NCBI GenBank assembly: GCA_020053305.1
Contig: JAGVNJ010000020.1
Coordinates: forward strand, 1-42,294
Reading direction: 5' to 3'
Source of the DNA: Candidatus Edwardsiibacteriota bacterium
GTDB lineage: Bacteria; Edwardsbacteria; AC1; EtOH8
Length of the DNA: 42,294 nt
Made by a program: the position numbers and the translations under genes. Positions 2-22,117 of this stretch are shown here, piece by piece; position 1 is the stretch's first letter; every line of letters begins with the position of its first letter. Below the pieces are notes generated by a model. That model did no database searches and was not told the DNA's origin. It was given only the letters and a program-made list of their open reading frames with translations.

Positions 2-88
2 GGCCAAAAAGCGGCCAACGGGGTTTATCTGTACCAGATGACCGCCGGGGAATTCTCGGCCACCGGCAAGGTGATGATCATAAGGTAA
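2..88 (+). CDS. C-terminal fragment of a secreted protein with FlgD-like sorting tail (5' end outside window)
   Basis: The reading frame is open from base 2 and ends at TAA 86-88, encoding the last 28 residues of a protein that begins before the window. The visible residues (GQKAANGVYLYQMTAG, then a lysine and MIIR at the end) match the final strands of the FlgD-like Ig tail found at the ends of the next six secreted proteins (for example NGIYFYRMEASG and NGVYLYRLTAGS). In that family the tail acts as a type IX-style export or anchoring signal. It is therefore probably another secreted or surface protein. Its main domains cannot be seen. Confidence 0.8.
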   Translation, partial: GQKAANGVYLYQMTAGEFSATGKVMIIR

Positions 89-127
89 TATATATTCGGC
101 GATGGGTTAAAACCCATCGCCTGTCGT

Positions 128-185
128 CATCAAATCCCGCTAAAGGCGGGATTGGTGATGAATAGCGTCAGGATTCATCCTGACG
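128..185. repeat. Double-hairpin palindromic repeat, copy 1
   Basis: Bases 128-172 are identical to 234-278. The first hairpin is aatcccgc/gcgggatt with a 5-base loop, extended by flanking catca/tgatg. The second is cgtcagg (166-172) pairing with cctgacg (179-185). Past base 172 the two copies diverge in the loop and the downstream arm, so this copy has a shorter second stem (7 bp) than copy 2. The layout resembles REP/BIME-type extragenic palindromes; no matching transposase is in the window. Confidence 0.75.
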
Positions 186-233
186 AGGAATATGGTGGGG
201 CAAATGTCAAAATCGCATAGTCAGTTATATTTT

Positions 234-297
234 CATCAAATCCCGCTAAAGGCGGGATTGGTGATGAATAGCGTCAGGTTGAATCCTGACGCTATTC
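234..297. repeat. Double-hairpin palindromic repeat, copy 2
   Basis: This is the second copy of the repeat at 128-185. The first hairpin spans 234-266 (8 bp core plus catca/tgatg arms across a 2-base bulge). The second is a perfect 13 bp stem, gaatagcgtcagg (266-278) with cctgacgctattc (285-297). The two hairpins abut directly and share base 266. Copy 2 looks intact and copy 1 degenerate on its right side. Confidence 0.8.
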
Positions 298-321
298 AAG
301 CAATTAAAATCAATTATATCC

Positions 322-350: not shown

Positions 351-387
351 AAAACATTATCAATTCAAATAAACAGGGAGTTTTATC

Positions 388-3069
388 ATGAAGCAAAAAT
401 TATGGTTAGCAATGGGCCTGGTCCTTTTGTTAAGCGCTACTTCGGTGTTATTTGCCAAACCAAGGCCCAAGGCCAAAGTAATGCCGTTCAAGGCGCCGCT
501 TGCGGCCAAGGCTACGGTGGACACGGTGTTCTTCGACAACTTTGAAACCGACACCATGGGCTGGGACACCATGGACATGGCCACTCAGGAACCCTATTGG
601 CATATCGACACCTACTCGCCGATAGGGGCCTTTGCCGGGCATCATTGGTGGTGCGGCACCAACGATTTTGCCGGGATCTGGCCGTTCTCGCCCGGATACG
701 GCAACGGCTGGGTGCAGATGCTCTACCCACCGGCCTTTGACCTGACTACGGTAGCCTCGGATTCCGTCCAACTGAAATTTTACCATTACTACAATATAGA
801 ACCGCGCGGCGGGGGGGATGACTGGGACTGCGTCAACCTGTGGGGCTCAACCGACGGAGGGGACAACTGGTTCATTATGCGCCCCGACACCATCCGTTCC
901 CAGGGCGGCGGTACGGCGGCCTATGATCTTAAAAAATCCTACGCCTGGACCTATACCGGCATGGTGCCCGACACCTTTCCGGTGCCGGGCTGGGGCGGCA
1001 CCAACGGGGCCTGGAAATATGTGGTCTTCGACCTGTCGCCCTACAAGGGCCAGAACGTAAACCTGCGTTTTGCCACGGTCAGCGATCCCCTGGAGTCGGA
1101 CGAGAACAGCACCACCGGGTATCACGGAGCCTGGTATATTGACAATATCTCGGTAGACACGGTTTACAACAGCGGCCAGCGGGGCCCGATCTTCTTTGAC
1201 GACTGCGAATCGGGCAACCTGGGCTGGACCGCCGGATCCAAACCGCCCAAGATCCACTGGCACAAGACCACGGCAAGGTCTTTCAGCCCCGTCACTTCCT
1301 GGTATTGCGGTGACGACAGCACCGGGCAATATTGGTGGGGCTATTCCGACGCCATTGTGTCGCCCCTGATAGACCTGACCCCGGTTCAGAACACCCAGCC
1401 CTGCTATGTGGACTTTAAGGTGTTTCCGCACCTGCCGGATGACGGCAGCGATGCCAATACCTATTGGGACTGCTATTCGGTGGATATCTCATCCGATAGC
1501 GGCAAGAGTTGGGCGGGCGTGACGCCGTATATTTATATCGATAACACCGCCGCCTGGGTTGATCAGTCCGTCATCGGGGTGCTGGATATAAGCAACTATA
1601 TCGGCAAAATAGTCAAGATCCGGATCGGCATGAGCTCCGATGGCGATTTCAATGTGGGCGAGGGCCTATACGTGGACGATTTTATCGTCACCGGCAAGAC
1701 CCGCGAGATACTGCCGCCTCCGGCCACCATTCTGCTGGTGGACAACGACGGCAATGCGGTCGACCTGGCCGCCAACTCCTGGACCAAATATATGGAGTCT
1801 TCCTTGGCCAATCTGGGATACCGCTACAGCGTAGCCGCCATCGGCACCAACAAGGTGATGACCCCCGGGTACCTGGAACAGTTCCCGGCGGTGATCTGGA
1901 ACCTGGGGTCCAATTTCGATTACCGCACCGGCCCCGGCTACCGGGCACTGACGGCCATTGACCAGGTAAACATCATGGCCTATCTGGACAACGGCGGCAA
2001 GCTGTGGATGTCCGGCCAGTATTACTTCTTCGCCAACGGCACCCAGCTGGACACCACGGTTCATCCCAACCTCTGGATGGATTACCTGCACTTGGCCCCG
2101 GAAAACGGCTGGGCGGCCACCACCAGCTACTGGGGATACGGACAGTCCGGCGATCCCATCGGCGACGGCCTGGCCGATTCGCTTTTGTACGACAGGCTTA
2201 ACGGCGGTTACTCCTGGACCGGTCCGGCCAAGGCCTATTCGCTTAATCCCGACACCCCCTCAGTTGATGTGTCAGGTTTTATGACCAATGATGACGGCTC
2301 TTTCAACGGCCTGCGTTACCAGGATGCCGGCTTGGGCTACAAATTAGTTTACACCGCATTTCCGTTCGAGGCGGTCTCGGAGCAGATAAAACGCGACACC
2401 CTGGCCTCCCGGATCATCCAGTGGATGCTGCCCGGCGTTCCGGAATACATGCCTCCGGCGGTTCCCACCGGATTGACGGCTGTTCAGCAGTTTGACAGCG
2501 TGATCTGCGCCTGGAACGCCAACAGCGAACCCGACCTGGCCGGCTACAATGTATACCGAGCCCTGCAGACAGGCCTGCCGGTGTGGGTCAAGATAGGGAC
2601 GGTTACCACCAATTCCTTTGTGGACAAGTTCATTGCCGATGGCGCTATCTATCACTACGCGGTGACCGCCTTTGACGATAAACTGCCGCCCAACCAAAGC
2701 GTCTTCTCCACCTGGTTCTATCTGCATGTAACTTCATGGAAGGGCGTGGAAGGGGAGCCGGTTGCCTCAACCCCCGGATACTTCAGCCTGGGCCAGAACA
2801 ATCCCAACCCCTTCAATCGTTCCACCAGCATCCAGCTGGCCCTGCCGGCCCAGAGCCGGATCAGGCTGGTTGTTTACAACATCACCGGTCAGCAGGTGAG
2901 AACCTTGGTTGATGACAACCTGAATTCCGGATATCACAATATTACCTGGAACGGGCGCGACCAGAGCGGGCAGTCGGTTGCCAATGGCATCTATTTCTAC
3001 CGGATGGAGGCTTCCGGAGCCAACGGGCAGAAGTTTGCCCAGACCAAACGTTTAAATCTGGTTAAATAA
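388..3069 (+). CDS. Secreted multidomain protein: two MAM/immune-inhibitor-like domains, amidotransferase-like domain, FnIII, FlgD-like sorting tail
   Basis: An 893-residue exported protein of unknown specific role. A signal peptide (MKQKLWLAMGLVLLLSATSV..., cleavage near residue 24) is followed by two related beta-sandwich domains at about 45-255 and 260-440. Both open with FFD(N/D)-type strands and close with YIDN or YVDD motifs, as in MAM/immune inhibitor A accessory domains. Residues about 447-680 begin ILLVDNDGN and resemble a type 1 glutamine-amidotransferase-like fold; the catalytic Cys-His-Glu triad of true enzymes was not identified. A fibronectin III domain lies near 690-780, then a VEGEP linker and a FlgD-like Ig tail (about 800-893, NPNPF motif). 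GGGAG upstream of ATG 388 supports the start. The next gene follows after 12 bases. Binding or surface-adhesion roles are inference. Confidence 0.85.
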   Translation: MKQKLWLAMGLVLLLSATSVLFAKPRPKAKVMPFKAPLAAKATVDTVFFDNFETDTMGWDTMDMATQEPYWHIDTYSPIGAFAGHHWWCGTNDFAGIWPFSPGYGNGWVQMLYPPAFDLTTVASDSVQLKFYHYYNIEPRGGGDDWDCVNLWGSTDGGDNWFIMRPDTIRSQGGGTAAYDLKKSYAWTYTGMVPDTFPVPGWGGTNGAWKYVVFDLSPYKGQNVNLRFATVSDPLESDENSTTGYHGAWYIDNISVDTVYNSGQRGPIFFDDCESGNLGWTAGSKPPKIHWHKTTARSFSPVTSWYCGDDSTGQYWWGYSDAIVSPLIDLTPVQNTQPCYVDFKVFPHLPDDGSDANTYWDCYSVDISSDSGKSWAGVTPYIYIDNTAAWVDQSVIGVLDISNYIGKIVKIRIGMSSDGDFNVGEGLYVDDFIVTGKTREILPPPATILLVDNDGNAVDLAANSWTKYMESSLANLGYRYSVAAIGTNKVMTPGYLEQFPAVIWNLGSNFDYRTGPGYRALTAIDQVNIMAYLDNGGKLWMSGQYYFFANGTQLDTTVHPNLWMDYLHLAPENGWAATTSYWGYGQSGDPIGDGLADSLLYDRLNGGYSWTGPAKAYSLNPDTPSVDVSGFMTNDDGSFNGLRYQDAGLGYKLVYTAFPFEAVSEQIKRDTLASRIIQWMLPGVPEYMPPAVPTGLTAVQQFDSVICAWNANSEPDLAGYNVYRALQTGLPVWVKIGTVTTNSFVDKFIADGAIYHYAVTAFDDKLPPNQSVFSTWFYLHVTSWKGVEGEPVASTPGYFSLGQNNPNPFNRSTSIQLALPAQSRIRLVVYNITGQQVRTLVDDNLNSGYHNITWNGRDQSGQSVANGIYFYRMEASGANGQKFAQTKRLNLVK

Positions 3070-3081
3070 GGAGAGGCATAA

Positions 3082-5460
3082 ATGCGTAAATTCATATTAT
3101 TAACCGCCCTTCTGACTTTGGCTGTTGTTGCTGTCAATGCAGCGCCCCCGTCAGTTACCCTGACCACCATCTGGCCTGATACTTCCTATGCCGGGCCGTA
3201 CACCGTAAGGACGGTGATAAAATGCCCTGACGGAGTTGGCTATGTCGGCTTGGGCTTCAAATACAATCCCACCGACGGGCCGTGGTACTGGTACTATGGC
3301 GGTTGGCTCGATCCCAACGATGACTGGATAGAGGAATACACCCAGGTGGGCGACACCTTCTATTTTGACATCCCGGCCATACCGGTGGGATTGGAAACCC
3401 CGGTTGAGATCGGCTATTCCGTATATGCGGAAAATGCTTCCACCGGCGATTATGTTGAGTCTCCGGGAAACAACGACTACTACAGCTTCATCAACACGAT
3501 CTATTCCCCGGCTTACAGCAATGTCAGCGCCCTGAAGGACACTTTTTTCACCGGGCCCTTCGTGGTTAAAACCAACCTAAGCACGGTCTACGGCGACTCG
3601 ATCAAGGATGATTTCATCTACAGCGACATCGCCGGAGGAGTCAACTATCCCCGGGACAGCGTGGCCGGAGGGTTCTACTATTACAGCATGCCCCGTCACG
3701 GCGGCGCCACGCTGACCCCCATCAATGTTAACTGGTTCATGACGGCCTACGACACCATGGGCAACTGGGCCCAGTACCCCACCAAGCGCGACACCATGAA
3801 CCGTTTCCGGATCATCGATCCCTGGTCATACAACACTAAATTGATCTCCAACACCGACCAGCTGGGGCCGTTTCCGGTGTGGACCAGCTTCAAAAGCGAA
3901 GGAAATATCGCCAACGACTCCCTGTGGATATTCCAGTCCGGCTGGGTTCCCTATCCCCGGGACAGCATGGCCGGGGGCGTCTATTATTACACCATTCCGG
4001 CCCAGAGTCTGCCGGTGGTCAATCCGGTTAGCGTTATCTGGCACATCAAGGCCGGCGATGACCTGACCGGGAACTACAGCTACCAGCCGATCACCGCGCC
4101 TCTTACCAATAACGAATTCCGGATATTCGACTGGACCCCGCCCCAGGTAAGCAATACCACCGCCTGGAAGGATACCTCTTTTACCGGGCCGTTCCCGGTG
4201 TACACCCAGGTGAAAGATACCTCCGGCGTATCACAGGTCAGGCTTTATTACCGGGTAAAACCGTTCACCACCAGCGACACCAGCTGGAGCTACCTGCCGA
4301 TGTCCCTTACCGGCAGCCCCGACCAATATAAGGCCTCGATACCGCCCCAGTACCCCGGCACCATGGTCCAGTATTATGTCAGCGGCCGGGACGGGGCTTT
4401 GGACCAGGCCGGCCAGCCCATCTGGAATACCGGCTATTACCCGGCCGGCGGATCGCTGACCCCCTGGCATTTCTTTGTGGGCGATCACCAGCATAAGATT
4501 CTGTTGGTCAATGATGCGCTGCCGGCCAATGATTACGGGAACTATTATACCACCTGCATGGACACCACTGGGGTAATCTACGGCTACTGGGACAACCGCA
4601 AGGCCAATGTTCTTTCAGCGCTCAACCATTTCAACGTGCTTATCTGGTTCACCGGCGATGACAGCCTGACCACCCTGACCCAGGCCGAAAGGGACAGCCT
4701 GTCGGCATTTCTGGACCGGGGAGGGAATCTTTTATTATCCTCCAAAAACCTGGGACAGAATGTCAGCGATACGGCGGTTTTCTATAACAGCTATCTCAAG
4801 GCCGATTTTGATGTCGCAACAGTTGCTGTGTCGTATATAAATTCCATAGGGCAGACAGCCCTTCCGATAAGTCATGGGTTAGCAGATACTTTAGGCATCC
4901 TGCTTACAGGGACAGCCGGTAACTATAGATCAATGGATAGAATATTCCCCTTAACGGGCGCAGAATCGGTTTTCAATTTCAGAACGATCGGCGGTTCTAG
5001 CGTAATAAGGTGTTCTACCAGTGTATATAAGGCAGTATTAAGTTCCGTTCCCTTAGAGGCAGTCGGAGCAAATACTCCGGGCAAACTGTCCCGCACTGAA
5101 TTCATTGCCAGAGTACTCAGGTGGTTTGGTGTTCCGGCCTTCTACAAGGTGGAGGGGGAGCCGGAGGCGCTGGCCTACGGTAAATTAGCCATTCTCAACC
5201 AGGCCAGGCCCAACCCGTTTACCACCAGCACCTCGATCTCCTATATTCTGCCCAATGCTTCCCGGGTGGCCTTGAAGGTCTATAACATTTTGGGGCAGGA
5301 GATTGCTTCCCTTTATGACGGAGATCAGACTGCCGGGATGCATGAAGCCTCCTGGAACGGTCTTGACCACAGCGGAAGGAAAGTGTCCAACGGTGTCTAT
5401 CTCTACCGCCTGACCGCCGGGAGCCAGAGCCTGACCAAGAAGATGGTAAAGATAAGATAG
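3082..5460 (+). CDS. Secreted protein with four Ig-like repeats, amidotransferase-like domain and FlgD-like sorting tail
   Basis: A 792-residue exported protein with signal peptide MRKFILLTALLTLAVVAVNAA. Four diverged beta-sandwich repeats start near residues 25, 147, 253 and 359, each marked by a D(T/Q)..(T/A)GP(F/Y).V strand; two also share RDS(V/M)AGG(F/V)YYY. From about 470, HKILLVNDALP opens an amidotransferase-like domain like that of the preceding protein, containing LDRGGNLLLSSKN. A VEGEPE linker precedes the FlgD-like tail (about 705-792, NPF motif, ending KKMVKIR). AGGAG lies just upstream of ATG 3082. The segment coding about residues 577-675 (4810-5110) is richer in A/T than its surroundings. 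It is probably co-transcribed with the upstream gene; the function is unknown. Confidence 0.83.
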   Translation: MRKFILLTALLTLAVVAVNAAPPSVTLTTIWPDTSYAGPYTVRTVIKCPDGVGYVGLGFKYNPTDGPWYWYYGGWLDPNDDWIEEYTQVGDTFYFDIPAIPVGLETPVEIGYSVYAENASTGDYVESPGNNDYYSFINTIYSPAYSNVSALKDTFFTGPFVVKTNLSTVYGDSIKDDFIYSDIAGGVNYPRDSVAGGFYYYSMPRHGGATLTPINVNWFMTAYDTMGNWAQYPTKRDTMNRFRIIDPWSYNTKLISNTDQLGPFPVWTSFKSEGNIANDSLWIFQSGWVPYPRDSMAGGVYYYTIPAQSLPVVNPVSVIWHIKAGDDLTGNYSYQPITAPLTNNEFRIFDWTPPQVSNTTAWKDTSFTGPFPVYTQVKDTSGVSQVRLYYRVKPFTTSDTSWSYLPMSLTGSPDQYKASIPPQYPGTMVQYYVSGRDGALDQAGQPIWNTGYYPAGGSLTPWHFFVGDHQHKILLVNDALPANDYGNYYTTCMDTTGVIYGYWDNRKANVLSALNHFNVLIWFTGDDSLTTLTQAERDSLSAFLDRGGNLLLSSKNLGQNVSDTAVFYNSYLKADFDVATVAVSYINSIGQTALPISHGLADTLGILLTGTAGNYRSMDRIFPLTGAESVFNFRTIGGSSVIRCSTSVYKAVLSSVPLEAVGANTPGKLSRTEFIARVLRWFGVPAFYKVEGEPEALAYGKLAILNQARPNPFTTSTSISYILPNASRVALKVYNILGQEIASLYDGDQTAGMHEASWNGLDHSGRKVSNGVYLYRLTAGSQSLTKKMVKIR

Positions 5461-5931: not shown

Positions 5932-8900
5932 ATGGCTAGAAAAACCAGCGTATGGTTAACCGGCTTGGCGCTGGCCGCGGCTCTGGTAAGCATCTCCCTG
6001 ATAGGCCTGAAAGATGTGGCGGCCTACAAGGCGGATTTCAGCCCCAGCAAAGCCTCACAGCAAAATATTGCCAAGCCCCAGGTGGAGGACCAGGTTAAAA
6101 CCGATGACGGCGTTCCGAAATTCGCCGGCGAAAACAAAATAACGGTGGATGTCCAGCCTTACGCCAATGCCGGCGTCATTGAGTTCTCCAACGGCTACAA
6201 GATCAACACCAGCCAGGGCGAACCCAAGCTTCCGTCCGACCTGAGATACGATTCACCCAAGGGCGACGAGCCGGCCTATTACATCGTTCAATTCAACGGA
6301 CCGGTGCAGGAGGCCTGGCGCAAGGGCCTGGAGAAGGCCGGGGCCGAGGTGATGTTCTACCTGCCCAACTACGCCTTTGTGGTCCGGATGAACGAGGCCA
6401 TCAGGGGCAATATCACCGCCGCCAAGGGCGAGGTCAAATGGACCGGGCTCTATCAGCCGGCCTACAAAATATCCCCCCGGCTGGCTGCCAATGCCAAGGG
6501 CGGAAAGATTCGGGCCTCCATCAGCCTGTTCAGCCCGGAGGATGTGAATTCGGCGATCAGCCAGATAGAGGCCGTCACCGGGCACAAAATATTCTACAAA
6601 TCCTCCTTCGAATGGGAACCGGGCAAGTTCAACAAGAAGATATTTGTTGATATCAGCTTAGACAAGCTTAGCGCCTTAGCCAACATCAGGGGCGTTTCCT
6701 GGATGGAGCCGATGCCGGTGTTCAAAATCTCCAACACCAACACCCAGGTTACCATGCAGAACGGCGTCCTCACCGCCAACGCCAGGCCTTTTTGGGTTTT
6801 GGGCATCAGCGGCGAGGGCCAGATAATCCAGAATTTGGACACCGGCTGCGCCGAGGCCAACGAATACTTCCAGCACTCCTCCAACCGCAAATCGGCCTGG
6901 TACTGGGACAACACCCACCGCAAGGTGGTGGGCCAGCAGCCGGGAGCCCGGGCCGACGAGATCGAACTGGGCTGGGCCGCCGGCACCATGTCAAAGTGGG
7001 GCGACGAATTGGCCAACAGCTACCACGGCACCCATACCGCCGGCAGCAATTGCGGCAATGACAGCTCGATTTTAACCGGCACCGCCGAGGGGATGGCCAA
7101 GCATGCCAAGCTGCTGTTTATTGACGGCGGCGGCGACTCCGGCTCGGTGTTCGGCACCTGGGACATCAACCGGGTGGGCTCCTGGGGCTGGGACAGCGCC
7201 TTCAAATACATCAGCCAGCGGGCCTACATCTCCTCCAACTCCTGGGGCAGCGATGACGGGGGCACTTACAGCAGCAGTTCCATGGAGTCCGACCAGTTCA
7301 TGTGGAGCCACAAGGACTATCTGTGGGTGTTCGCCAACGGCAATACCGGAATCGAAGCGGTGCCGCTGTCCAAGGCCGGCTCTCCGGCCACCTGCAAGAA
7401 CGGGGTGGCGGTGGGGGCCCTGGCGGCCGCCGGGGCCAGCGGGCTGGGCGGGGCCAACACCAAGGCCACCTTCTCCAGCTGGGGAAGATTGCTGGACGGA
7501 CGCTTAAGCCCCACGGTCAGCGCTCCTGGCACCAACATCATATCGGCCGACGGCGACGGGGCCGGCACCAGAACCATGAGCGGCACCTCCATGGCCTGTC
7601 CGATCGTGGCCGGTAGCACCGCCATGCTCCGGCAGTACTTTACCGAGGGCTGGTATCCCACCGGAACCAAGATAGCCGCCAACGGCTTCACCCCCTCGGC
7701 CGCCCTAATGAAGGCCACCCTGGCCATCAGCGGCGACAGCACCACCAGCTGGTGCGGCTCCTTCGTGCCGGACTCCCTGTTCGGCTGGGGGAGGGTCAAC
7801 TTAGACACCGCCCTGTTCTTGTCCGGCAACCAGGTCAAGCTGTTAGTCAACGACAACCGCACCGGGGTCAATACCGGCGAGGCCATCGAATACCTGCTTA
7901 ACATACCCACCGGCGCCACCGGGCTTAAGATATCACTTACCTGGACCGACTACCCCGGCAGCACCACCGCGGCCAAGGCCTTGGTAAACGACCTGGACTT
8001 AGACGCCTACAATCCCGCGGCCGCCCGCTACCGCGGCAACCGCTACGGCTCCGTCCTGCCCAGGCAGTCGGTTACCACCGCCACCGACAACGATAATATT
8101 GACATTTTGGAGGGCATCAAGGTGGTTGCCCCGGCAGTCGGTACCTGGAGGATCAGGGTCACCGGCAAGAACGTGGCCATGGGGCCGCAGCCCTTTGCCT
8201 TGGTGATCACCTATAGGACCGCCCTCCCGGCCATGGGCAAGGTTTATTTAGATAAAAACTCCTACGACACCCCCATCGGCGGCGGGGTGGGCGATACCCT
8301 GCGGATAGAGATTCACGATCCCAACAATGTTCTGGCCTCCAACAATGTGGCGGTGTGGGCCAAGTTCGTGGAGACCCAGCCGGAAACGGTGTCCTGCGTC
8401 AAGGTGGGCGACGGGCTGTTCCGGGGCAAGATAGCCCTGTTCAACGGCAACCCGTTGCACGCCGACGGCCGTCTGAGCGTGGACTATCTCGATTCCGTCA
8501 GGGTGGTGTATGTGGACGCCAGCCCGGCCGGGACCGACACCGCCTACGCCAGCATCAACGGGGGCTCATTCACCATCACCAATGTCCGGGCCGGCGACAC
8601 CCAGCCCCCGGTGGGGACCATGAAGCTGATCATGTGGAACACCTCGCAGAACACCACCAGCCGGGTCTATTATGGCCTGACCACCGCCCTGGGCAGCACC
8701 GTCGGGGTGGATACCCCCTTAATGATCAACAACACCGTTAAACTGACCGGGCTGGCCGCCAACCAGATATACTATTACGATGTGGAATCCAAGGATGCCA
8801 ACGGCAATACCCTGCGGGACGACAACGCCGGCCGCCACTATATGTTCAGCACCGGCGGCGGCAGCGGGCTCAACGATATCCTGATCTGGATGTGGGACGA

Positions 8901-11319: not shown

Positions 11320-14300
11320 ATGAGAAAATTTTGGTGCATAGCATTCATACTATCCCTGGCAGCCGGCTGGGGACTGGCCCAGTCCGACAGGGCCACCATC
11401 AATGCTGGAGCGTTGAAAACCGACCTGCTGTCGAACAATCTGATGGGGGATACCACCGCCTCCCGGTACCTTCCGGCCGGGTTCTTTCCCTATCACGAGC
11501 ATAAAGCTCTTCTGAAGCTGGGCAGCCTGTGGCTGGGAGGATCCATCGACAATAAGAAACACTTCGGGGTCAGCGCCGGATATATTGATGGAGGCGGCAA
11601 GATCGGCAGCGAATGGAATAACGACGGCAACCTGATATCAGCCGATATTCCGGGCGCGGTTTCGCCCTTGGAAATTTCAGCCGGCTTCGGGGACACCAGC
11701 CATGCCGCCAATCAGGGAATCAAGCTGGGCATCAAGGCCGGCCTGACGGTGCATCAGTGGAGCTATTCGCCGGTAGACAAGTTTTATATCCTGAACTATA
11801 AGCTGGAGAACGTGGGGGGCGAAAAGGTGGACAGCCTGTATGCCGGGCTTTACCATCTGCCCACTGTTTTCCGGGATGCCGTCAGTAACTCCTCCAACCT
11901 TGATTTCTGCGGTTTCGACAGCTCGCCCGATCCGGTCAACGGGGTAAGCCGGGACCTGCTGTGGATCACGGCCGATTCGGTCTCCTGCTCCAACAGTTAC
12001 GGGATCGACCCCCAATTTCTGGGCATCAGATTGTTGCAGGCAGTTGATCCGGCGGGCAGTTCTGCCGGGCTGAACGGGGCTTCCAGCTGGTTCGGTCTGA
12101 GAATGGAACCCTACAGCGACGACGATCCCCTGAACCCCTACAGCAAATATTTTTACCTGAGCCGGAACAGATCGGATGTGGCCGATGTTCAAAAAATAAA
12201 TGCTCCGGTAACCACTTTCGACACCCTCACCCTTGATTTCTTCGGGCAGGTTATCACTGATGTAGAAGGGGTATGGGATGTTAACGACACCAACCATCTG
12301 GGCCTGAACTATTACACCGGAGGATCGTTTGACGCCGAAAGGGGCCTGATCCATCTGGGAACGTCCAAAGCCGACAGACTGGCGCTTATCAACAGCGAGG
12401 AGAGCTGGCCCTGGGACACTTTGACCCTGGCAGTCTCGGTGACCCCGGTGGCCTCGGTGTCCGGGGTATACGATAATCCCCTTGATACCGGCATCAATTA
12501 TTATTCCGGGGGCAGCTTTGTGGCGTCCACTGGGACGATCACCCTGGGCACCCCCTATTACGGCGGCGCCCAGTTGTATGTGGATTATTATTATAAAATC
12601 AACAATGTGGCCGTTTCCTACAACTATTATTTCAACAAGGTCATCACCACCCCCTGGGACAACCTGACCCTGCAGATAAATCCGTATGCCGTTCAGTTCA
12701 TTGAGGGGGTCTACTGGGCCAAGGACAGTTCCTGCGCCGGAACCAATTATTTCACCGGAGGGTCATTTGACCGGTCCAGCGGGATGATCAGCCTGGGTAT
12801 GGCCATCGATGATGACACCATGACAGCGAACAATTATTATACACTGACCCATGATGCCGGCTGGGGGCCTTCTGCTGATCTAATTGCAGTAGATTGGATA
12901 GACCCCGCAAAAATTACTGAGATCTTGTCAGTTTACGACGCTACCAGCACTGATCGCTATCCGGGTGGCAGCTATGATCCGTTTACTGGTTTGATAACTC
13001 TGGGAAATCCTTTTCCGGATACCACTTATAACGAGGTGTGGATAAATTATCGGTATCTATCCACTCCGAACGTCTGGGTGAAAAACTACAAGCCGGAACT
13101 TTCGACCAAGAATGTCCTGGCCTCGGTCGGCCCCTGGACCATGGATCCGGGCGATACGGCCCGGGCGGTCTTTGCCGTGGTGGCGGGAAACACATTATCC
13201 GAACTTCAGGCCGCCGCGGATTCAGCTCTTTATATCTGGAACAATCCATCAGCCACTATTTCGGCCCTGGCCGGATCGGTTTCCGGTATGGTGGAAAGGA
13301 CCGCCGGAAGGGGGCCGGTCTCCGGGGCCAAAGTAGTGGCCTATCAAGGGGTGGCGCCCATTGACTCGGGCTATGCGGATAACAACGGACGGTATTTCAT
13401 CAGCAATATCTCCGGCGGACTTTACGACTCGCTGGTGGCCTCGGCGGTGAATTATCTGCCTGCCAGCTTGAGTAATGTTACCGTTACCAATGAGCAGAAT
13501 AATGGAGGAAATAACTTGACCCTGGTATCCTCCCGGGCCGACCTGTCGGGCAGCATCGTCCGGGCCGATGGGATCACTCCGGTAAAGATGGCTCGGGTCG
13601 ATATCCGGGGCGCCAATATTGATTCCGCATTTTCCGATGTTTTCGGCTATTATCAGTTTTCCGGTTTGAAAATCACCGCCGGGGACACCCTGATCTTTAC
13701 TGCCCCTTACTGCCTGACCGACACGGTGCCCGGCATCATCTTGGCCGAGGATTCCGCTTCGGCCTGCAACCATACCATGCATTCCCTGACCGGCTGGATA
13801 GACGGCCTGATAACCAAGCTGGACGGCATCACTCCGATCGCCGGGGCGTCGGTCAAAGCCGCCAGACCGGCCGATACCGTTTCCACCATAACCGGAGGGG
13901 ACGGCAGATATAGCCTGGGCGGACTGTCCGCAGATAATTACAGTATTCTGGTTTCCGCCAGCTGGTTTGCCTCCGATTCGATAAGTGGTATAGCTTTGGC
14001 GGCCGACTCCACGGCCCAGGCGAACCTGTCTCTCAAGCAGGCCAACAATATTTCCAGCCTGATATGGCAGAAGAAATCTACCATGCCTTCCTGGCGATAT
14101 GGCTCGGCCTCGGCTATGGCCGGCGGAAAGATCTACTTATTTGGCGGGCGCGATTATCTGGGCGCAACCAATACCGTTTTTTGCTACGATCCGGCAGCCG
14201 ACACTTCCCGGGGCGATCCCTGGAATAGTCTGGCCGATATGCCGATTGCCCGTTATGGACTGGGAGCGGCTGCGGTGGGGGATACCATCATCTATGTGAT

Positions 14301-15528
14301 CGGCGGCTACGACAACGACAGCCTGCCGTTGTCGGCCATTCAGGCCTACCTGCCGGCTTCAAACAGTTGGGTAACCGGGCTGGCCAGTATGCCTACTCCC
14401 AGGGCGTTTCTGGGAGTGGCTAGCATTTCTGACAGTATTTATGCGGTTGGTGGCTTGAATTCAAGCATCGCTGGTTTGTGTACTGTAGAAGTATATTTAC
14501 CCCAAAGCAACAGCTGGGTTACAGTAAAATCACTTTTTGGCGGAGCATCGTGGGGTCGGGCGGGTATGGGTTTAGTATCCGTTGACAGTTTTGGGGTTAA
14601 AAGAATTCACTCGGTGGGTGGGCAAAGACTGGGTGGAGCTTATTTGAATATTCACAATAAATATAACCCGATTACTAACGCTTGGATTAGTCGCTCAACC
14701 GTTCCCTGGTATATTGCCTTCGGCACTGCTGTAAATCTGAACGATTCGTTATATATTATTGGCGGTCGTAATGATGGTGGTTTCTCTAACAAAGTAGGTG
14801 TTTATAATAATTTTGCCAATACTTGGGCTACAGCCACAGATTATCCTTCAGTTTCAGCCTACCCCTCTTCTATGGCGATGGATTCCGTGGGTATCTGGGT
14901 TTTAGGCGGCAAAACGGCCGATACGTATATTTCCGATGAAATATATTTCGGCTACAAGGCGGGCGGGATAACCGGCCTGTGCAATACCACCACCAACGGT
15001 CCGGTGATAGGCGCTTTGGTCAGCGCCATCTCCGGCTCAAAGGTTAAAAACACCGAAGCTACCGATAATAGCGGCTACTATACTTTGGCCGGACTGGAGC
15101 CGGGCACATACGATGTCCGCATCTACAAAGCCGGGGTGATGGACACCGTTATATCCCAGGTGGTGGTCCGTTGGGGCAAGGTCACTAATGCACCAACCGT
15201 TACCGGTGTGGCTGGCGGCAAACCAAGCGCGGTGATTTCAACTTTCGCGTTGCATCCGGCGTATCCCAATCCGGCCAGAGGGGTCTGCAATATCAATTAT
15301 CAAATACCGTCCAATTCCAGAGTGGAGCTTGCAATATACAATGTCCTGGGCCAAAAGGTAAAAACCTTGGTTTCGGGCAACAAATCTGCCGGCAATTATT
15401 CAATCAAGTGGGCAGGAGACGACAGCCGGGGCCAGAAGGTCGCCAATGGCATTTATATTTACAGATTGCAGATGAACTCCGGAATGGAAAATAAAACCGC
15501 CACCAAAAAGCTGGTGCTGCTCAGGTAG
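11320..15528 (+). CDS. Secreted repeat protein: four NYY.GGSF repeats, carboxypeptidase-regulatory-like domains, Kelch propeller, FlgD-like sorting tail
   Basis: A 1402-residue exported protein of unknown function. Signal peptide MRKFWCIAFILSLAAGWGLAQ. Residues about 300-600 hold four copies of a 60-85-residue repeat with the core NYY.GGSFD..TG.I.LG (cores near 327, 389, 473 and 544), often preceded by W.WD.LTL and GVY; I do not recognise it as a named family. Four carboxypeptidase-regulatory-like beta-sandwiches follow (about 652-730, 740-815, 826-900 and 1215-1290; G.YY..GL pattern). A Kelch-type propeller (about 915-1215) contains YLFGGRD, YVIGGYD, YAVGGLN, YIIGGRN and WVLGGK strands. The FlgD-like tail is about 1310-1402. 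The stretch coding much of the Kelch part (14420-14900) is visibly A/T-richer. GGAGGG supports the start. Surface display or carbohydrate/protein binding is inference. Confidence 0.85.
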   Translation: MRKFWCIAFILSLAAGWGLAQSDRATINAGALKTDLLSNNLMGDTTASRYLPAGFFPYHEHKALLKLGSLWLGGSIDNKKHFGVSAGYIDGGGKIGSEWNNDGNLISADIPGAVSPLEISAGFGDTSHAANQGIKLGIKAGLTVHQWSYSPVDKFYILNYKLENVGGEKVDSLYAGLYHLPTVFRDAVSNSSNLDFCGFDSSPDPVNGVSRDLLWITADSVSCSNSYGIDPQFLGIRLLQAVDPAGSSAGLNGASSWFGLRMEPYSDDDPLNPYSKYFYLSRNRSDVADVQKINAPVTTFDTLTLDFFGQVITDVEGVWDVNDTNHLGLNYYTGGSFDAERGLIHLGTSKADRLALINSEESWPWDTLTLAVSVTPVASVSGVYDNPLDTGINYYSGGSFVASTGTITLGTPYYGGAQLYVDYYYKINNVAVSYNYYFNKVITTPWDNLTLQINPYAVQFIEGVYWAKDSSCAGTNYFTGGSFDRSSGMISLGMAIDDDTMTANNYYTLTHDAGWGPSADLIAVDWIDPAKITEILSVYDATSTDRYPGGSYDPFTGLITLGNPFPDTTYNEVWINYRYLSTPNVWVKNYKPELSTKNVLASVGPWTMDPGDTARAVFAVVAGNTLSELQAAADSALYIWNNPSATISALAGSVSGMVERTAGRGPVSGAKVVAYQGVAPIDSGYADNNGRYFISNISGGLYDSLVASAVNYLPASLSNVTVTNEQNNGGNNLTLVSSRADLSGSIVRADGITPVKMARVDIRGANIDSAFSDVFGYYQFSGLKITAGDTLIFTAPYCLTDTVPGIILAEDSASACNHTMHSLTGWIDGLITKLDGITPIAGASVKAARPADTVSTITGGDGRYSLGGLSADNYSILVSASWFASDSISGIALAADSTAQANLSLKQANNISSLIWQKKSTMPSWRYGSASAMAGGKIYLFGGRDYLGATNTVFCYDPAADTSRGDPWNSLADMPIARYGLGAAAVGDTIIYVIGGYDNDSLPLSAIQAYLPASNSWVTGLASMPTPRAFLGVASISDSIYAVGGLNSSIAGLCTVEVYLPQSNSWVTVKSLFGGASWGRAGMGLVSVDSFGVKRIHSVGGQRLGGAYLNIHNKYNPITNAWISRSTVPWYIAFGTAVNLNDSLYIIGGRNDGGFSNKVGVYNNFANTWATATDYPSVSAYPSSMAMDSVGIWVLGGKTADTYISDEIYFGYKAGGITGLCNTTTNGPVIGALVSAISGSKVKNTEATDNSGYYTLAGLEPGTYDVRIYKAGVMDTVISQVVVRWGKVTNAPTVTGVAGGKPSAVISTFALHPAYPNPARGVCNINYQIPSNSRVELAIYNVLGQKVKTLVSGNKSAGNYSIKWAGDDSRGQKVANGIYIYRLQMNSGMENKTATKKLVLLR

Positions 15529-15783: not shown

Positions 15784-17313
15784 ATGAAGAAAATAAAATT
15801 TTATTTGGCGGCTGGTTGGTCAATGTTTATTTTGTCCGGCAGCCTATATGCTCAAAACTGGACGGCCGACAGCAACCTGACCAATTCCGCCGGCGGGTCC
15901 TACACCGCAAGCAACAACAGCCACAGCCTGGCCGTTTTCCAGAACCGGATATATCTGGTCTGGTACGATTTCTATTCAAGCCCGAACAACATGGGCTGCC
16001 AGGTCAGATTCAAGCGACACGACGGGGGCGCCTGGTCGGCCGACACCACGGTCGGTTTGATCGGCAACACCAGGCTCAACAACTGGTATCCCTCCTGTGC
16101 CGCGGACGCTGCGGGAAATTTCCACCTAGTGTGGGAGACCAACGAGTTCACCACCGATATAGAGAACTTTGAGATTGCCTATCGCAGGTACGGCAGCAAT
16201 TACTGGACGGGAACCACCAGGCTTACCGCCAGTTCCGGTCCGTCATCCAACCCCACGATCGCCGTTGCCGGGGACGGCCGCCTGTTTGTCATATGGCAGG
16301 ATAAAAGGGGCGGCCTTTATCGGATATATTATAAAATATACTCCGGCTCCAGCTGGGGCACGGAGGGCATTCTGGGGGAGAATGTTGATTATTGCGGAAT
16401 GCCGAGCGTGGCCACCTGCCAGGGACTGCCGGCGGCGGTCTGGGAGGACTTCAGTTCCGGGACTTTTCAGGTGCGGTTCCGCAAAATGTCCGCCGGCGGC
16501 TGGGAGTCCGACAGCCTTATCAGCCACAGTCCCCAGGGGGCTTTCAGCCCGGCCATAGCCGCCGATAATTCGGGCAACATCCATGTGGCCTGGCAGGATT
16601 GGTCGCTTAACAGCTCAAAGATATGCTACCGGAAGTATTCCACCCTGTCGGGGAATTGGGGCCAGGAAATAGTTCTCAGTGGCGCCGCTTTCCGGACGGA
16701 GATCCCGGTCATAGTCTGCCGGGACAGTTTGGTGGATGTTTTTTGGGCGGATGACCGCAGCGGCTACTACGAGATATACCGCCGCCAATCCGCCAACGAC
16801 AACTGGGGGCCGGATGAGCAGCTGACCGACCAGAGGGCATCGGCGGTATTGCCTTCGGTGGCTGCCGATTCCCGGGGAAATATGCATCTGGTCTGGACCG
16901 GAGATCAGCCGATAGTAAATAAAAGCCCCGATATATTCATTAAAAGCCTGTTTATAGATCCCTGGCCGCCGAAAGATGGAGACCTGACCGGCAGTGATGC
17001 CAAACCCCGGTGCAACATAATTACTTTCCCCAATCCGACCTCGGACCGTTCGATCCTGAAATATTCGATCGCTTCCCCGGCCGGCAGCCTGTCGCGCCAA
17101 ATCCCGGCATCATATAATTGCAGGATGGATGTCTACAATGTCGCCGGGCAGCTGGTCAATACGCTGTTCACGGGCAATTTGTCCGAAGGGGAGCACTTCC
17201 TAGAATGGAACGGCAGGGACCGGGCCGGCCAGAAAGTGCCCAGCGGCATTTATTTTGCCAAAGTGACGACAGGGACGGCCGCTTCGGTGGCAAAAATAAT
17301 GGTAGTGAGGTAA
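15784..17313 (+). CDS. Secreted beta-propeller (sialidase/Asp-box-like) protein with FlgD-like sorting tail
   Basis: A 509-residue exported protein. Signal peptide MKKIKFYLAAGWSMFILSGSLYAQ, then about 370 residues of repeated beta-propeller blades. The blades are marked by recurring strands such as FHLVWETN, LFVIWQDKRGG, IHVAWQDWS, VDVFWADDRSG and MHLVWTGDQ, resembling sialidase-superfamily or BNR-like propellers. No sialidase catalytic set was identified, so a binding role is as likely as an enzymatic one. The C-terminal tail (about 415-509; FPNPTSD, then WNGRDRAGQKV and SGIYFAK) belongs to the family shared with its neighbours. The next gene begins 4 bases after the stop, so the propeller, C25 peptidase and PorV-like genes probably form one operon. 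Confidence 0.85.
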   Translation: MKKIKFYLAAGWSMFILSGSLYAQNWTADSNLTNSAGGSYTASNNSHSLAVFQNRIYLVWYDFYSSPNNMGCQVRFKRHDGGAWSADTTVGLIGNTRLNNWYPSCAADAAGNFHLVWETNEFTTDIENFEIAYRRYGSNYWTGTTRLTASSGPSSNPTIAVAGDGRLFVIWQDKRGGLYRIYYKIYSGSSWGTEGILGENVDYCGMPSVATCQGLPAAVWEDFSSGTFQVRFRKMSAGGWESDSLISHSPQGAFSPAIAADNSGNIHVAWQDWSLNSSKICYRKYSTLSGNWGQEIVLSGAAFRTEIPVIVCRDSLVDVFWADDRSGYYEIYRRQSANDNWGPDEQLTDQRASAVLPSVAADSRGNMHLVWTGDQPIVNKSPDIFIKSLFIDPWPPKDGDLTGSDAKPRCNIITFPNPTSDRSILKYSIASPAGSLSRQIPASYNCRMDVYNVAGQLVNTLFTGNLSEGEHFLEWNGRDRAGQKVPSGIYFAKVTTGTAASVAKIMVVR

Positions 17314-17317: not shown

Positions 17318-20300
17318 ATGAAAAAGCACATAGCGATCATCTCGGCCATCCTTTATTTTTCGACGGCGGCTCTGGCCGATGTTGACGTAATCAAATCCGA
17401 TGAGTCCGGCATGGTCATTGAGTTCGGGGCGGGGAATATAAAAACCTCTCCGGTGGTTGCCGGCAATAAAACCTATCACCGAGTATCGGTGGAGGGCTGC
17501 CTCAATACCATTGACTGCGGGAAGCCTGCTTTGCCGCAGTACAGCGTAATGCTGGCGGTACCTTACAATGCTTCGGCAATCATCACCCGGATTGAGATGC
17601 TGGACAAGGAATATATTCCCATTGTCCCCCTTCCCAGCCCGGCCCCGGCCGAAATGGCCGAGGGCTTTGTGATTGACCAGGCCATATATTCCGGGAGGGC
17701 CCAGTACCCCTCTCAGGCGGCCGGCTTGAGCAACCCGGGCTGGGCCGGGAACACCAAGGTGTCGACGGCAACAATTTTCCCGGTCGTTTTCGATCCGGCC
17801 AATGCCCGGGTGATCTTCAGCCGGAGGATCAGGGTCACCATTGAATATAAAATAATTGGGACCTATCCTCAGGGAGGTCGGCCGGCCCAAAGCCAGATAG
17901 ACAGGGTTTTGCTTGGAGCCGTAGCCAACCCCCAACAAGCTGAAAAATGGGGCTACCGGGCTTTGTCCAAGGCCGGCCAAATATCTTGTGATACCATGCC
18001 GTATAAGATGTTTATCAAAAACGACGGCATCTATAAAATAGGCTATAACGACCTCCTGGCCGGGGGAATAAATCCCGATCTGACGGACCCCCGGTCGTTG
18101 AAAATAATCCATAAGGGCCGGGAGGTCGCCCTGTATTTTAAAGGACAGTCGGACGGGGTTTTCGATCCCGATGATTATTTTGAATTTTACGGGCAGGCCG
18201 GCCGAGGGGACTCCACCTATTACCATCAGTTTTCCAATGCCAATGTGTATTACCTGTCTTTGACCGGATCATTCGGCGCCCGAATGACGGAGGAGGACGG
18301 AACCCCGGTTATATCGGGTGTGAATCCGGCCAGCCATTTTTCGGAGACACTCCATTTTGAAAAGGACAGCCTGTTTTACCGGCTGAGCAGCTGGAACAGC
18401 GATCAGCAGGATCGGTGGTTCTGGAAAAGGGTGGATTACCCGGGAAGCGCGGCTATAAGTCTCGACATTCCCTCCCCGTATATTTCTTCCGGGGACAGCT
18501 TCATCATCAAGGGCAGCCTCCACGGGATCACCACAGACTGGCATCATGTTCAACTTCTGCTGAACGGGTATTTGATAGCCGACCTCACCTGGTATGAGCA
18601 GACCGAAAAAGAATTCATTGCCAGATTCCCGGCGACAGCAGTCATTAACGGGGCCAATAGTTTGACGGTCAGACACGACACCACTTCCACTTCCACTACC
18701 AGCAACAAGATACTGATCAACTGGTTTGAGATAGACTATAAAAGGAGCTTCAATGCTCCCGCCGGCAATCTGACTTTCATCTCCGATGCGAAAGTCAGCG
18801 ATTCCCTGGTGCAGTACACCATAACCGGATTGCCGACCTACACAACCGAGGTTTATAAGCTGGGTGCAAGCAAGATCGTAGGCTCGACGATAACCCCGGG
18901 GCCCAGCGGCCTGGACTATAACCTGTCCTTTCAGGACAGGATATACGGCAATGAAAAATATATGGTTATCCGGAGCGATAATAAAAGAAAACTTTCTTCG
19001 GGGGATCTGGTGCCGAACAACCCGTCAAACTTAAGGGATCCGGCATTCGTCGGCACCAGATATGTCGTCATAACGTCGGATGAGCTGAGGGCCTCGGCAG
19101 AGAAGATGGTCCAGGCCCGGAGATCAAAATATCCCAATGCGGTTTATGCACTGACAACCGATATCTATGATGAGTTCAACGATGGAATACCATCGGACAG
19201 GGCAATCAGGGATTATCTTAAGTACGCATTTGACAACTGGTCAATCCAGCCGGAATATGTCTTATTGTTGGGCGACGGCAGCTACGACCCCCGGAATGTC
19301 ATCGGGAACAGCAAGCGCGACCAGGCGCCGGTCCATCTCACCAGGACGGACTATTACGGAGGGGTAGCCGATGATGATTATTTTGTTAGGGTCAATGGCG
19401 ATGATTTTCTGCCTGATATTTCAATAGGAAGGCTGCCGGTAAACTCCAACCAGGAATTTACCATTTGGGAAAACAAAAGGCAGTTGTATGACCAACGGTT
19501 GTTCCTGGACCGGTGGCATAAGGACATCCTTTTTGTTGCCGGCTGGCCCCTCAATATTGAGGATAATTTTTACAGTCCTAGCGATAAACTGGCGGCCATG
19601 GTTTCCCCGGTATACGATATAGCCAAGGTATATCACGGTTCCGCCTTTCAGAACAAGGAGGACCTGATAAACCGCCTAAACCAGGGAGTGGCGGTAGCGG
19701 TGTTTTACGGGCATGGCGGGGCGCAGCTGTGGTCCCACGGGAGCTTCTTTTGGTATTATGATGTTCCCCGGCTGAATAACTGGGGGCGGTGGCCCCTGAT
19801 AGGGTCTTTTACCTGTAATTCAGGCGCTTTTGAGAGCCCCTTATATATCTCCCTAAGCGAATCTTTCATTTTCAACAACGGAGGGGCCATCGGGGTATAT
19901 GCCAGCAGCGGAGCTTCTTACGGGGACAGCATCACCGGCTGTGCTTTGGAAAATACCTTTATGGATGCCTGGGACAGGAAGGGATTCCGGAATATCGGCG
20001 ACATTGCGTTGTCTTCTAAATACAGCCTGGCCGGAGGACTGCCGCCATCCGGCCAATCCCTGGATATGCTGGTAAGCTATAATCTGCTGGGCGATCCGGC
20101 TGTCCGGCTGGCCCTTCCGGATACCGGGTTGAAAATTGAAATATCGCAGACGGCTGTTTTACCAGGCGATTCCACCCAGGTAAAAATAACCGGGCCTTTT
20201 GGTTCCGGCCTGGCGGTGATTTCTTTATATGACGCTGGCCGGAGAATTGTTCTCCAGAATGCCTTCTCCGCCTCGGCGGGGCAGGCTCAAACTTACATTA

Positions 20301-22117
20301 CCATTCCCGATTCGGCTCTTCCCGGCCAGGCTTACTTGAAAATTTATTTGAAGGATGATAATTCCGATTGGGTGGCAGTGGAGTATTTGGGCATAAGCCG
20401 GCCGGCCATATCAGGAATCAAGATAATTCCTTCCGCCCCCACCGATATCGACAGCATACAAATCACCGGGATCGTCCAGAGCCTTTCGGGTCTCGATTCG
20501 GTGTGGTGCCGATGGCACTGGGGAAGCTACAACGATACCACCGACACCGGAGGCGTTTTTAAGCAGGCCCTGATGTCCCTGTCCGGAGATTCTGTCAGGC
20601 TGAACAACGGACTGTACCTGACCGGGTTGGAGGGAAACTACCCTCCTCTATCCGAATTCTATCTGGTCTTCCGTATTTCGGCCCAGGATACCTTAGGCAA
20701 TATCACGACCGGACGCTGGGAAAGACACAAGATACTGCGCCGGGCCGATCTGACTTCCTCCAGTCAGGCTCAGGGATCGGTTTACCTGGGCGGCAAGAGG
20801 GTGTTGAGCATAAGCGCCTCAATCAAAAACCAAGGGGATATCTATGCCGATTCGATCCCGGTATTTTTCTATCGCTCGGGCGACGATTCCCTATTGGGTT
20901 CCGGCATTATCGACACTATAGCCGCCAGGAAGGAAAAGAAGCTAACCATGCCATGGACGATTGAGGGGGAGTTCACCCAGCTATATTACCGGATAGACCC
21001 ACTCCGGACTCTGGCGCTGCCGTATCCCCAGGAAGATACTACCAACGATAATTCAGTGGCCTATTGGGTGCCCTCCCAGGATTTCTATTATTATCAATTG
21101 GATATGAGGGGCACCAATCAGGACACGCTTGATTATTACTCAAACATCAGGGCCGTTTTCCCTGATTCCTGCCTGCAAGACAGCGCGGTGGCCATTATCG
21201 GCCGGAAGTTGTATGATATAAACAGTATCGCCCAGTCCGGCTTGATCCCCTTTGACAGCCTGGGGCAGGTTTATTTTGTGGGACTGACGGATTCCTCCCG
21301 GACTTTTGATAACGGTCGGGAGCTTTGGGTGTCACTCAAGCTGGATAATATCGACAGCACTACCGATTTGCACAACCTTAAACTCTTCAGGCATGACGAT
21401 ATAACCGGAATGTGGCAACTGATCCCCTCGCTGATTGACAGCAACTATATCTCCGGATTTTCTTCTCAGCCCGGAACATTTATTGCCATGTATTCAACGG
21501 ACACCACCGGACCGCAGATAACCGCCAAGGTGGACCAGCGGGCGGTAGGCTGGGGGCAGGTTATCAGCGTTCCCGATCCCCAATATTCGGTCATGATCGA
21601 GGACCGGGATGGGATAAATATCGATTCAATATGGCTTAAATTGGATAACCAGATTGTGAACAAGTCAGATTACAGCCTGACAATTAATCCTGATAAAAGT
21701 CACAGTGTTCAGCTGGTATATTCCGCCAAACTGGAAAATGGAAGGCATAGCCTGGAAGTTGGAGCGGCTGATAATTTGGGCAACAAATCCTCTCTCAAAA
21801 TATTCAATGATGTAAAAATAGAATTCTCTCTTAAAGAAATCGCAAATTATCCAAACCCGGTTGACGGTGATGTTACGACCTTCTATTTCTATGTGGGCGA
21901 TGTGGCCGACAGATACGAGCTCAAGATATACACTGTTGCGGGAAGGCTGCTGAAAACCTTCAAAGGGGGGGTGACCTCCGGGGTGCGCACTTTTGAATGG
22001 GATCTGTGCGATGAGAACGGAAGGGGCATAGCCAATGGGGTTTATTTTTATAAATTTACTGTTTCCCAGAACGGAAATGTTCAGGAGAAGACCGGAAAGA
22101 TGGCGGTTCTCCGATAA
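17318..22117 (+). CDS. Gingipain-family (C25) cysteine peptidase, PorU-like, with FlgD-like C-terminal domain
   Basis: A 1599-residue exported protein. Signal peptide MKKHIAIISAILYFSTAALA, then a gingipain-propeptide-like region to about residue 190. A segment typical of long C25 proteins follows (YKMFIKNDGIYKIGYNDL, DPRSLKI, DYFEFYGQ). The C25 catalytic domain spans about 575-930 (VLLLGDGSYDPRN to NLLGDPAVRL), with candidate catalytic His799 (FYGHGGA) and Cys833 (GSFTCNSGAF). Their spacing of 34 is close to the 33 of RgpB. Ig/CARDB-like modules follow and a FlgD-like tail ends the protein (about 1507-1599). In type IX secretion, PorU is a C25-type sortase with its own C-terminal domain, encoded next to porV. 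The next gene here is PorV-like, so a sortase role is plausible; an ordinary secreted gingipain-like protease is the alternative. Confidence 0.88.
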   Translation: MKKHIAIISAILYFSTAALADVDVIKSDESGMVIEFGAGNIKTSPVVAGNKTYHRVSVEGCLNTIDCGKPALPQYSVMLAVPYNASAIITRIEMLDKEYIPIVPLPSPAPAEMAEGFVIDQAIYSGRAQYPSQAAGLSNPGWAGNTKVSTATIFPVVFDPANARVIFSRRIRVTIEYKIIGTYPQGGRPAQSQIDRVLLGAVANPQQAEKWGYRALSKAGQISCDTMPYKMFIKNDGIYKIGYNDLLAGGINPDLTDPRSLKIIHKGREVALYFKGQSDGVFDPDDYFEFYGQAGRGDSTYYHQFSNANVYYLSLTGSFGARMTEEDGTPVISGVNPASHFSETLHFEKDSLFYRLSSWNSDQQDRWFWKRVDYPGSAAISLDIPSPYISSGDSFIIKGSLHGITTDWHHVQLLLNGYLIADLTWYEQTEKEFIARFPATAVINGANSLTVRHDTTSTSTTSNKILINWFEIDYKRSFNAPAGNLTFISDAKVSDSLVQYTITGLPTYTTEVYKLGASKIVGSTITPGPSGLDYNLSFQDRIYGNEKYMVIRSDNKRKLSSGDLVPNNPSNLRDPAFVGTRYVVITSDELRASAEKMVQARRSKYPNAVYALTTDIYDEFNDGIPSDRAIRDYLKYAFDNWSIQPEYVLLLGDGSYDPRNVIGNSKRDQAPVHLTRTDYYGGVADDDYFVRVNGDDFLPDISIGRLPVNSNQEFTIWENKRQLYDQRLFLDRWHKDILFVAGWPLNIEDNFYSPSDKLAAMVSPVYDIAKVYHGSAFQNKEDLINRLNQGVAVAVFYGHGGAQLWSHGSFFWYYDVPRLNNWGRWPLIGSFTCNSGAFESPLYISLSESFIFNNGGAIGVYASSGASYGDSITGCALENTFMDAWDRKGFRNIGDIALSSKYSLAGGLPPSGQSLDMLVSYNLLGDPAVRLALPDTGLKIEISQTAVLPGDSTQVKITGPFGSGLAVISLYDAGRRIVLQNAFSASAGQAQTYITIPDSALPGQAYLKIYLKDDNSDWVAVEYLGISRPAISGIKIIPSAPTDIDSIQITGIVQSLSGLDSVWCRWHWGSYNDTTDTGGVFKQALMSLSGDSVRLNNGLYLTGLEGNYPPLSEFYLVFRISAQDTLGNITTGRWERHKILRRADLTSSSQAQGSVYLGGKRVLSISASIKNQGDIYADSIPVFFYRSGDDSLLGSGIIDTIAARKEKKLTMPWTIEGEFTQLYYRIDPLRTLALPYPQEDTTNDNSVAYWVPSQDFYYYQLDMRGTNQDTLDYYSNIRAVFPDSCLQDSAVAIIGRKLYDINSIAQSGLIPFDSLGQVYFVGLTDSSRTFDNGRELWVSLKLDNIDSTTDLHNLKLFRHDDITGMWQLIPSLIDSNYISGFSSQPGTFIAMYSTDTTGPQITAKVDQRAVGWGQVISVPDPQYSVMIEDRDGINIDSIWLKLDNQIVNKSDYSLTINPDKSHSVQLVYSAKLENGRHSLEVGAADNLGNKSSLKIFNDVKIEFSLKEIANYPNPVDGDVTTFYFYVGDVADRYELKIYTVAGRLLKTFKGGVTSGVRTFEWDLCDENGRGIANGVYFYKFTVSQNGNVQEKTGKMAVLR

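Follow-up and report, generated by a model that had tools for sequence, protein, structure and literature searches.

A conserved block of genes with type IX-like sorting tails in Candidatus Edwardsbacteria, probably closed by a PorU-like sortase and a PorV-like shuttle of its own

In Porphyromonas gingivalis and Flavobacterium johnsoniae, the C-terminal domains (CTDs) of proteins exported by the type IX secretion system (T9SS) cross SprA and are collected by PorV; PorU cleaves the cargo and joins it to A-LPS, which is presented by PorZ (PMC8545088, PMC12618676). The system was still called exclusive to Bacteroidota in 2025 (PMC12618676) and other FCB phyla were allowed for it in 2024 (PMC11285876).

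The window, i.e., the whole stretch of DNA analysed here, is the entire contig C26 (42,294 nt) of genome G000 (assembly GCA_020053305.1; 2.59 Mb, 99% complete). The named records with an orthologous locus belong to Candidatus Edwardsbacteria/UBP2. A preliminary description of the window had compared its tails with type IX export signals of Bacteroidetes; the host, Candidatus Edwardsbacteria, lies outside Bacteroidetes. The presence of seven consecutive genes with a common sorting tail, reported in the same description, was confirmed; six of them are complete plus-strand open reading frames (genes 2–7) with tails assigned by profile models, and of the remaining one (gene 1), cut off by the end of the contig, 28 residues are left, with a tail assigned by alignment. 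The VEGEP linker noted in two genes was found in genes 2 and 3. Gene 1 is the end of gene C, which is located on contig C4 together with genes A and B. The coordinates of all features are collected in Table 1. The 300-bp gap between genes 1 and 2 contains two 59-bp direct repeats with hairpins (positions 127–298; AATCCCGCTAAAGGCGGGATT and GTCAGG...CCTGAC), and no exact copy of the repeat core was present in the 209 loci examined.

Table 1. Features of the window and of the adjoining part of gene C (positions refer to the window unless contig C4 is given).
Feature	Position	Strand	Details
Gene 1/C, C-terminal stub, 28 aa + stop	2..88	+	bases 2–85 code the last 28 residues; remainder on C4:9074-11680
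Gene C, contig C4 portion: M14 zinc carboxypeptidase, fn3-like module and sorting tail	C4:9074-11680		PF00246 191 bits
Gene 2: 893-aa predicted secreted protein, InhA-like MAM domains, VEGEP linker, sorting tail	388..3069	+	
Gene 2 sorting tail	2785..3066	+	FlgD_ig 42.2 bits, TIGR04183 27.3 bits
Gene 3: 792-aa predicted secreted protein, VEGEP linker, sorting tail	3082..5460	+	
Gene 3 sorting tail	5173..5457	+	TIGR04183 43.2 bits
Gene 4: 1664-aa S8 subtilase, fn3-like module, sorting tail	5932..10926	+	PF00082 105 bits, FlgD_ig 47.3 bits
Gene 4 sorting tail; Ig-like beta-sandwich model, pLDDT 88	10639..10923	+	TIGR04183 33.6 bits
Gene 5: 1402 aa, carboxypeptidase-regulatory-like repeats, kelch repeats, sorting tail	11320..15528	+	
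Gene 5 sorting tail	15241..15525	+	TIGR04183 40.7 bits
Gene 6: 509-aa probable beta-propeller (repeat pattern), sorting tail	15784..17313	+	4 bp upstream of gene 7
Gene 6 sorting tail	17026..17310	+	FlgD_ig 44.5 bits, TIGR04183 32.0 bits
Gene 7: 1599-aa PorU-like C25 peptidase, C25 propeptide domain, own C-terminal sorting-type domain	17318..22117	+	PF01364 235 bits, PF08126 54 bits, NF033707 319 bits
Gene 7 C25 catalytic domain	19061..20110	+	His799 19712-19714, Cys833 19814-19816
Gene 7 sorting-type C-terminal domain	21830..22114	+	FlgD_ig 28.0 bits, TIGR04183 34.0 bits
PorV-like outer-membrane barrel, 332 aa	22149..23147	+	likely start 22149, ORF open from 22035; NF052325 112 bits, NF033709 78 bits
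HAD phosphatase (GmhB-like), three GT2, one GT4 and one GT9 (heptosyltransferase) genes, tight series	23263..28275	+	

All six complete genes scored above the cut-off of TIGR04183 (T9SS type A sorting, 23 bits). Of the two models proposed for the tails in the preliminary description, FlgD_ig (PF13860) matched six of six genes above its cut-off (28.0–47.3 bits), but PF18962 (Por_Secre_tail, cut-off of 27 bits) recognized only three, with genes 3, 4 and 5 above the threshold (27.1, 32.1 and 34.8 bits, respectively) and genes 2, 6 and 7 below it (20.8, 24.7 and 14.6 bits, respectively). A profile built from 13 tails and compared with the PDB had the PorU CTD as its top match; the T9SS substrate CTD 8glj was aligned over the full length and FlgD in the middle only. 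In the fold search with the modelled tail of gene 4, the CTDs of PorU and PorZ were found among the top matches together with FlgD and other Ig-like domains, and fold alone therefore cannot separate T9SS from FlgD. The two are told apart by the position of the tail, its entry motif, the TIGR04183 match and the SprA and PorU encoded in the genome. The proteins of the window have hydrophobic N-termini by sequence, and a simple hydrophobicity rule indicated a signal peptide in 49 of 60 tailed proteins of G000. The T9SS reading of the tails is thus supported by TIGR04183, the sequence profile, the predicted fold, the signal peptides and the two T9SS proteins encoded in the genome, and the tails are best described as putative type A-like sorting domains.

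In G000, the SprA/Sov translocon was identified in an ORF of contig C8 (358 bits, cut-off of 200) and the canonical PorU on contig C57 (619 bits with NF033707, cut-off of 420), where it adjoins a PorV-family gene. The latter gene (L061:7816-10290) encodes 824 aa, with the match to the family split into positions 3–42 and 48–325 by an in-frame insert of about 490 residues. Five tailed C25 peptidases are present in G000, on contigs C57, C26, C28, C23 and C4, and a PorV-family gene is located near those on C57, C26 and C28. The GldL model reached only 15 bits, which is under its cut-off, and the GldM model gave no match in any genome searched, the intended positive controls included. As GldM thus failed to match even the positive controls, a T9SS without a motor is not claimed, and the T9SS of G000 is treated as putative.

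The seven genes had been taken for plain cargo genes, which does not hold for the last of them, as gene 7 encodes a homologue of PorU-type sortases and is accompanied by a PorV-like partner. The assignment of gene 7 to the C25 family is based on the PF01364 match and on the catalytic residues H799 and C833, neither of which varies among 10 orthologues of 39–87% identity. PorU (6za2) is the closest PDB structure. The scores of the protein with NF033707 (PorU; 319 bits) and NF052324 (PorU2; 201 bits) lie below the equivalog cut-offs of 420 and 450, and its placement relative to PorU and to the other group of about 1600-aa proteins was not settled by the C25 protein tree, a quick one with long branches. 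The PorV-like gene begins 31 bp after gene 7. Its product has PorV 6h3i as the sole PDB profile match and PorV 8gl6_F and 6h3i_F at the top of the fold search, in agreement with a FadL-like barrel of the PorV type, and scores 77.8 bits with NF033709 (PorV/PorQ family, cut-off of 90) and 111.8 bits with NF052325 (PorV2, cut-off of 325). As both proteins stay under every curated equivalog cut-off, the names PorU and PorV are used for them as statements of homology. A search of the available literature for PorU2 gave no paper.

Among 54 FCB-group loci examined, most had a PorV-like gene directly 3' of the C25 gene. The partners tested at these loci were mostly under the curated cut-offs, with that of L130 barely reaching the PorV-family value. 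Judged from these sequence comparisons, gene 7 and the PorV-like gene constitute a predicted second sortase-shuttle set besides the canonical PorU/PorV on contig C57, and such sets appear to recur across FCB candidate phyla. Outside the family to which G000 belongs, the pair usually occurs without a long upstream cargo block. In KSB1-type genomes (L108, L110, L113, L115 and L134), a tailed gene of about 1060 aa is located directly 5' of the PorU-like/PorV-like pair; this arrangement is possibly a one-cargo version of the block.

Gene 6 lies directly 5' of gene 7 in G001, G002, G003, G006 and G009 as well as in the window, and its product is a possible PorZ counterpart. The link to PorZ is no more than a lead: the match to NF052228 (27 bits) covers the tail alone and the PDB profile search gave only FlgD. 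The HAD and glycosyltransferase genes located downstream of the pair may be the source of a surface glycan anchor.

The last 82 bases of contig C4 (11,680 bp) are identical to the start of the window. This contig contributes C25 peptidase A, S8 subtilase B and M14 carboxypeptidase C, all three tailed, so that the two contigs, with a join that rests on the 82-bp overlap and synteny, would give an uninterrupted series of nine tailed genes, for the most part in the same order in related genomes. In G003 (nine contigs), A, B, C and genes 2–7 are found in the same order with one untailed ORF of 453 aa between C and gene 2, and the congener G002 (10 contigs) is organized likewise with an ORF of 632 aa at this position. 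In G006, representing another genus, genes 2–7 and those encoding the PorV-like protein and the HAD phosphatase follow in order. The order of these eight genes is kept in G002, G003 and G006 and partly in G001 and G009; it is retained across genera at about 40% protein identity. Within G000, seven of the 65 FlgD_ig tails lie at most 600 bp from a contig end (contigs C4, C10, C38, C50, C52, C60 and C75), compared with 3.6% expected, which would fit an assembly interrupted by tails of nearly identical sequence.

The side-by-side location of the tailed genes had been considered unusual. When gene positions were randomized over the 65 tails of the 2.59-Mb genome, no run of six was obtained in 20,000 trials, the longest being five; on a stricter distance basis, at least six tails fell within 19.1 kb in 136 of 20,000 trials. 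Close tail pairs across G000 were not significantly enriched (13 observed, 9.0 +/- 2.6 expected). The run is therefore real, exceptional and conserved, but clustering of tails as a genome-wide property is unsupported.

The preliminary description had also raised the possibility of tails being exchanged between neighbours. Among the six complete genes of the window no exchange was detected, and general tail exchange was rejected: in a tree comprising 39 tail sequences of five genomes, the tails of genes 2–7 group by gene and not by genome, the rows of the distant G006 being poorly placed. A clear exchange was nevertheless found for the pair B/C, which includes the truncated gene 1. The bodies of B and C are 25% identical in G000 and 22% in G002, whereas the last 175 residues are 97% and 99% identical, respectively. 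At the DNA level, the shared tracts comprise 535 bp at 96% in G000 and 552 bp at 99.3% in G002; in both genomes they start in the fn3-like module and reach the stop codon or extend slightly beyond it, and the bodies have no DNA match. In G001 and G003, the tails of B and C remain distinct (79% and 77%, respectively). The switch point lies inside one gene: compared with its G001 orthologue, C of G000 shows 87–98% identity before the module and 57–92% inside it, whereas the corresponding values against B of G000 are 33–46% and 88–100%. At sites informative for donor versus orthologue, C follows B at a ratio of 92:11 in G000 and 155:3 in G002. Two independent B-to-C gene conversions, one in each of these genomes, are the simplest account, and a similar but shorter stretch is present at the 3' end in G001. 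The linker-plus-tail unit accordingly acts like a module open to exchange, with that of the subtilase having overwritten the one of the adjacent carboxypeptidase in at least two genomes. A search of the available literature for T9SS combined with gene conversion gave no paper.

Several other tailed genes of G000 were inspected in this context. A related module occurs on an unrelated protein on contig C41 (66% over 98 aa ahead of the tail). Contigs C38 and C75 share 586 bp at 91%, both beginning inside a tail module with the bodies absent. In a tailed gene on contig C11 (L063:4290-6750), an in-frame TGA stands where the tail has its conserved Trp (GGYTIN*DRKNN) and the reading frame continues unbroken past it; a neighbour 0.5 kb upstream carries an 84%-identical tail. 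The neighbouring genes on contig C44 were dismissed as a case of tail exchange, their bodies being about 60% alike, as in ordinary duplication.

Three other explanations have to be weighed against these results. The tails might be FlgD-like Ig domains serving surface adhesion or assembly with no role in export, as suggested by the high rank of FlgD structures in the profile and fold searches and the PF18962 scores under the cut-off in genes 2, 6 and 7. Such a reading is improbable given that TIGR04183 is passed by all six genes, SprA and PorU are encoded in the genome, the domain is strictly C-terminal in each of genes 2–7 and the part with the PNP entry motif has no FlgD match. Moreover, of the FlgD hook-cap protein the Ig part alone matches, and the FlgD N-terminal family was not reported in the tailed proteins. 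Less probable still is the origin of the identical B/C tails in a recent duplication or assembly collapse instead of gene conversion. The contig break of G000 falls exactly in the repeated tail, and the excess of tails within 600 bp of contig ends fits the same explanation; however, the bodies of B and C belong to different peptidase families (S8 and M14), about 20 sites distinguish the two copies in G000, the 10-contig assembly of G002 shows the pattern again with a different sequence, and the orthologous C of G001 and G003 retains its own tail.

A much stronger competitor, falling just short of an even prospect, holds that the pair and the cargo are mere neighbours, that all tailed proteins use the PorU/PorV of contig C57 or both pairs alike, and that the block is an ancestral arrangement with no functional specificity. 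The existence of a canonical PorU/PorV, the location of most of the 65 tails elsewhere in G000, the diversity of the tails of genes 2–7, which track gene ancestry, and the occurrence of the pair without a block in other FCB phyla are all in line with it, but the spacing of 4 bp between genes 6 and 7 and 31 bp between gene 7 and the PorV-like gene, as well as the gene order preserved between genera despite the divergence of the proteins, speak against it. Taken together, the data make it probable that the locus is a conserved type IX cargo block of Candidatus Edwardsbacteria with a PorU-like sortase and a PorV-like shuttle of its own at the end.

In such a block, the signal peptide would take each tailed protein to the periplasm, the type A-like tail would pass through SprA and the PorV-like shuttle would collect the protein. 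The PorU-like C25 sortase would cut off the tail and anchor the protein to a glycolipid of the cell surface, in whose synthesis the downstream glycosyltransferases may take part, and the product of gene 6, probably a tailed propeller, might act like PorZ. The pair would in this way service the adjacent cargo. A further-reaching proposal, rather unlikely on the present data, is that a second, unnamed sortase-shuttle pair with a wide distribution among FCB candidate phyla serves a cargo set of its own encoded next to it, and that recombination keeps the neighbouring tails alike and thereby matched to the pair. If this were true, the export address would evolve apart from the enzymes carrying it. 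The repeated overwriting of an export tail by that of a neighbour provides a natural experiment on the spread of a signal between unrelated enzymes. More generally, a candidate phylum is described with a translocon, a canonical sortase, about 65 proteins with such tails and, in addition, another sortase-shuttle pair missed by the curated models, which raises the question of whether a second PorU/PorV-type pair means cargo specialisation.

Compared with the type A CTD cargo of Bacteroidota (TIGR04183), the proteins described here are alike in the C-terminal Ig-like tail, the signal peptide, the peptidase or adhesin bodies and the SprA and PorU of the genome. They differ in the Edwardsbacteria host, in tails scoring higher with FlgD_ig than with PF18962, in the long conserved cargo block adjoining a sortase gene and in the motor genes, not detected in a search that had no working positive control. 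The PorU-PorV-PorQ-PorZ attachment complex (PMC8545088) is resembled by the C25 domain with His and Cys, the CTD of the peptidase itself and the adjacent PorV-family barrel, with 6za2 and 6h3i/8gl6 as the nearest solved structures; in contrast, the peptidase has about 1600 aa, the scores are below the cut-offs of NF033707, NF052324, NF033709 and NF052325, and the pair exists besides a canonical PorU. Genetic linkage of cargo to a shuttle gene is also known for the type B CTD substrates of Flavobacterium johnsoniae and their cognate PorP/SprF shuttles (PMC12618676), whereas the locus studied here combines type A-like tails, a PorV-like shuttle with a sortase and many cargo genes. Finally, C-terminal modules are likewise moved by recombination between surface-protein genes in the gingipain/haemagglutinin rearrangement of Porphyromonas gingivalis (PMC5266723); that case mostly concerns adhesin domains and alleles of different strains, whereas here it is the export tail itself, carried by unrelated peptidases within one genome.
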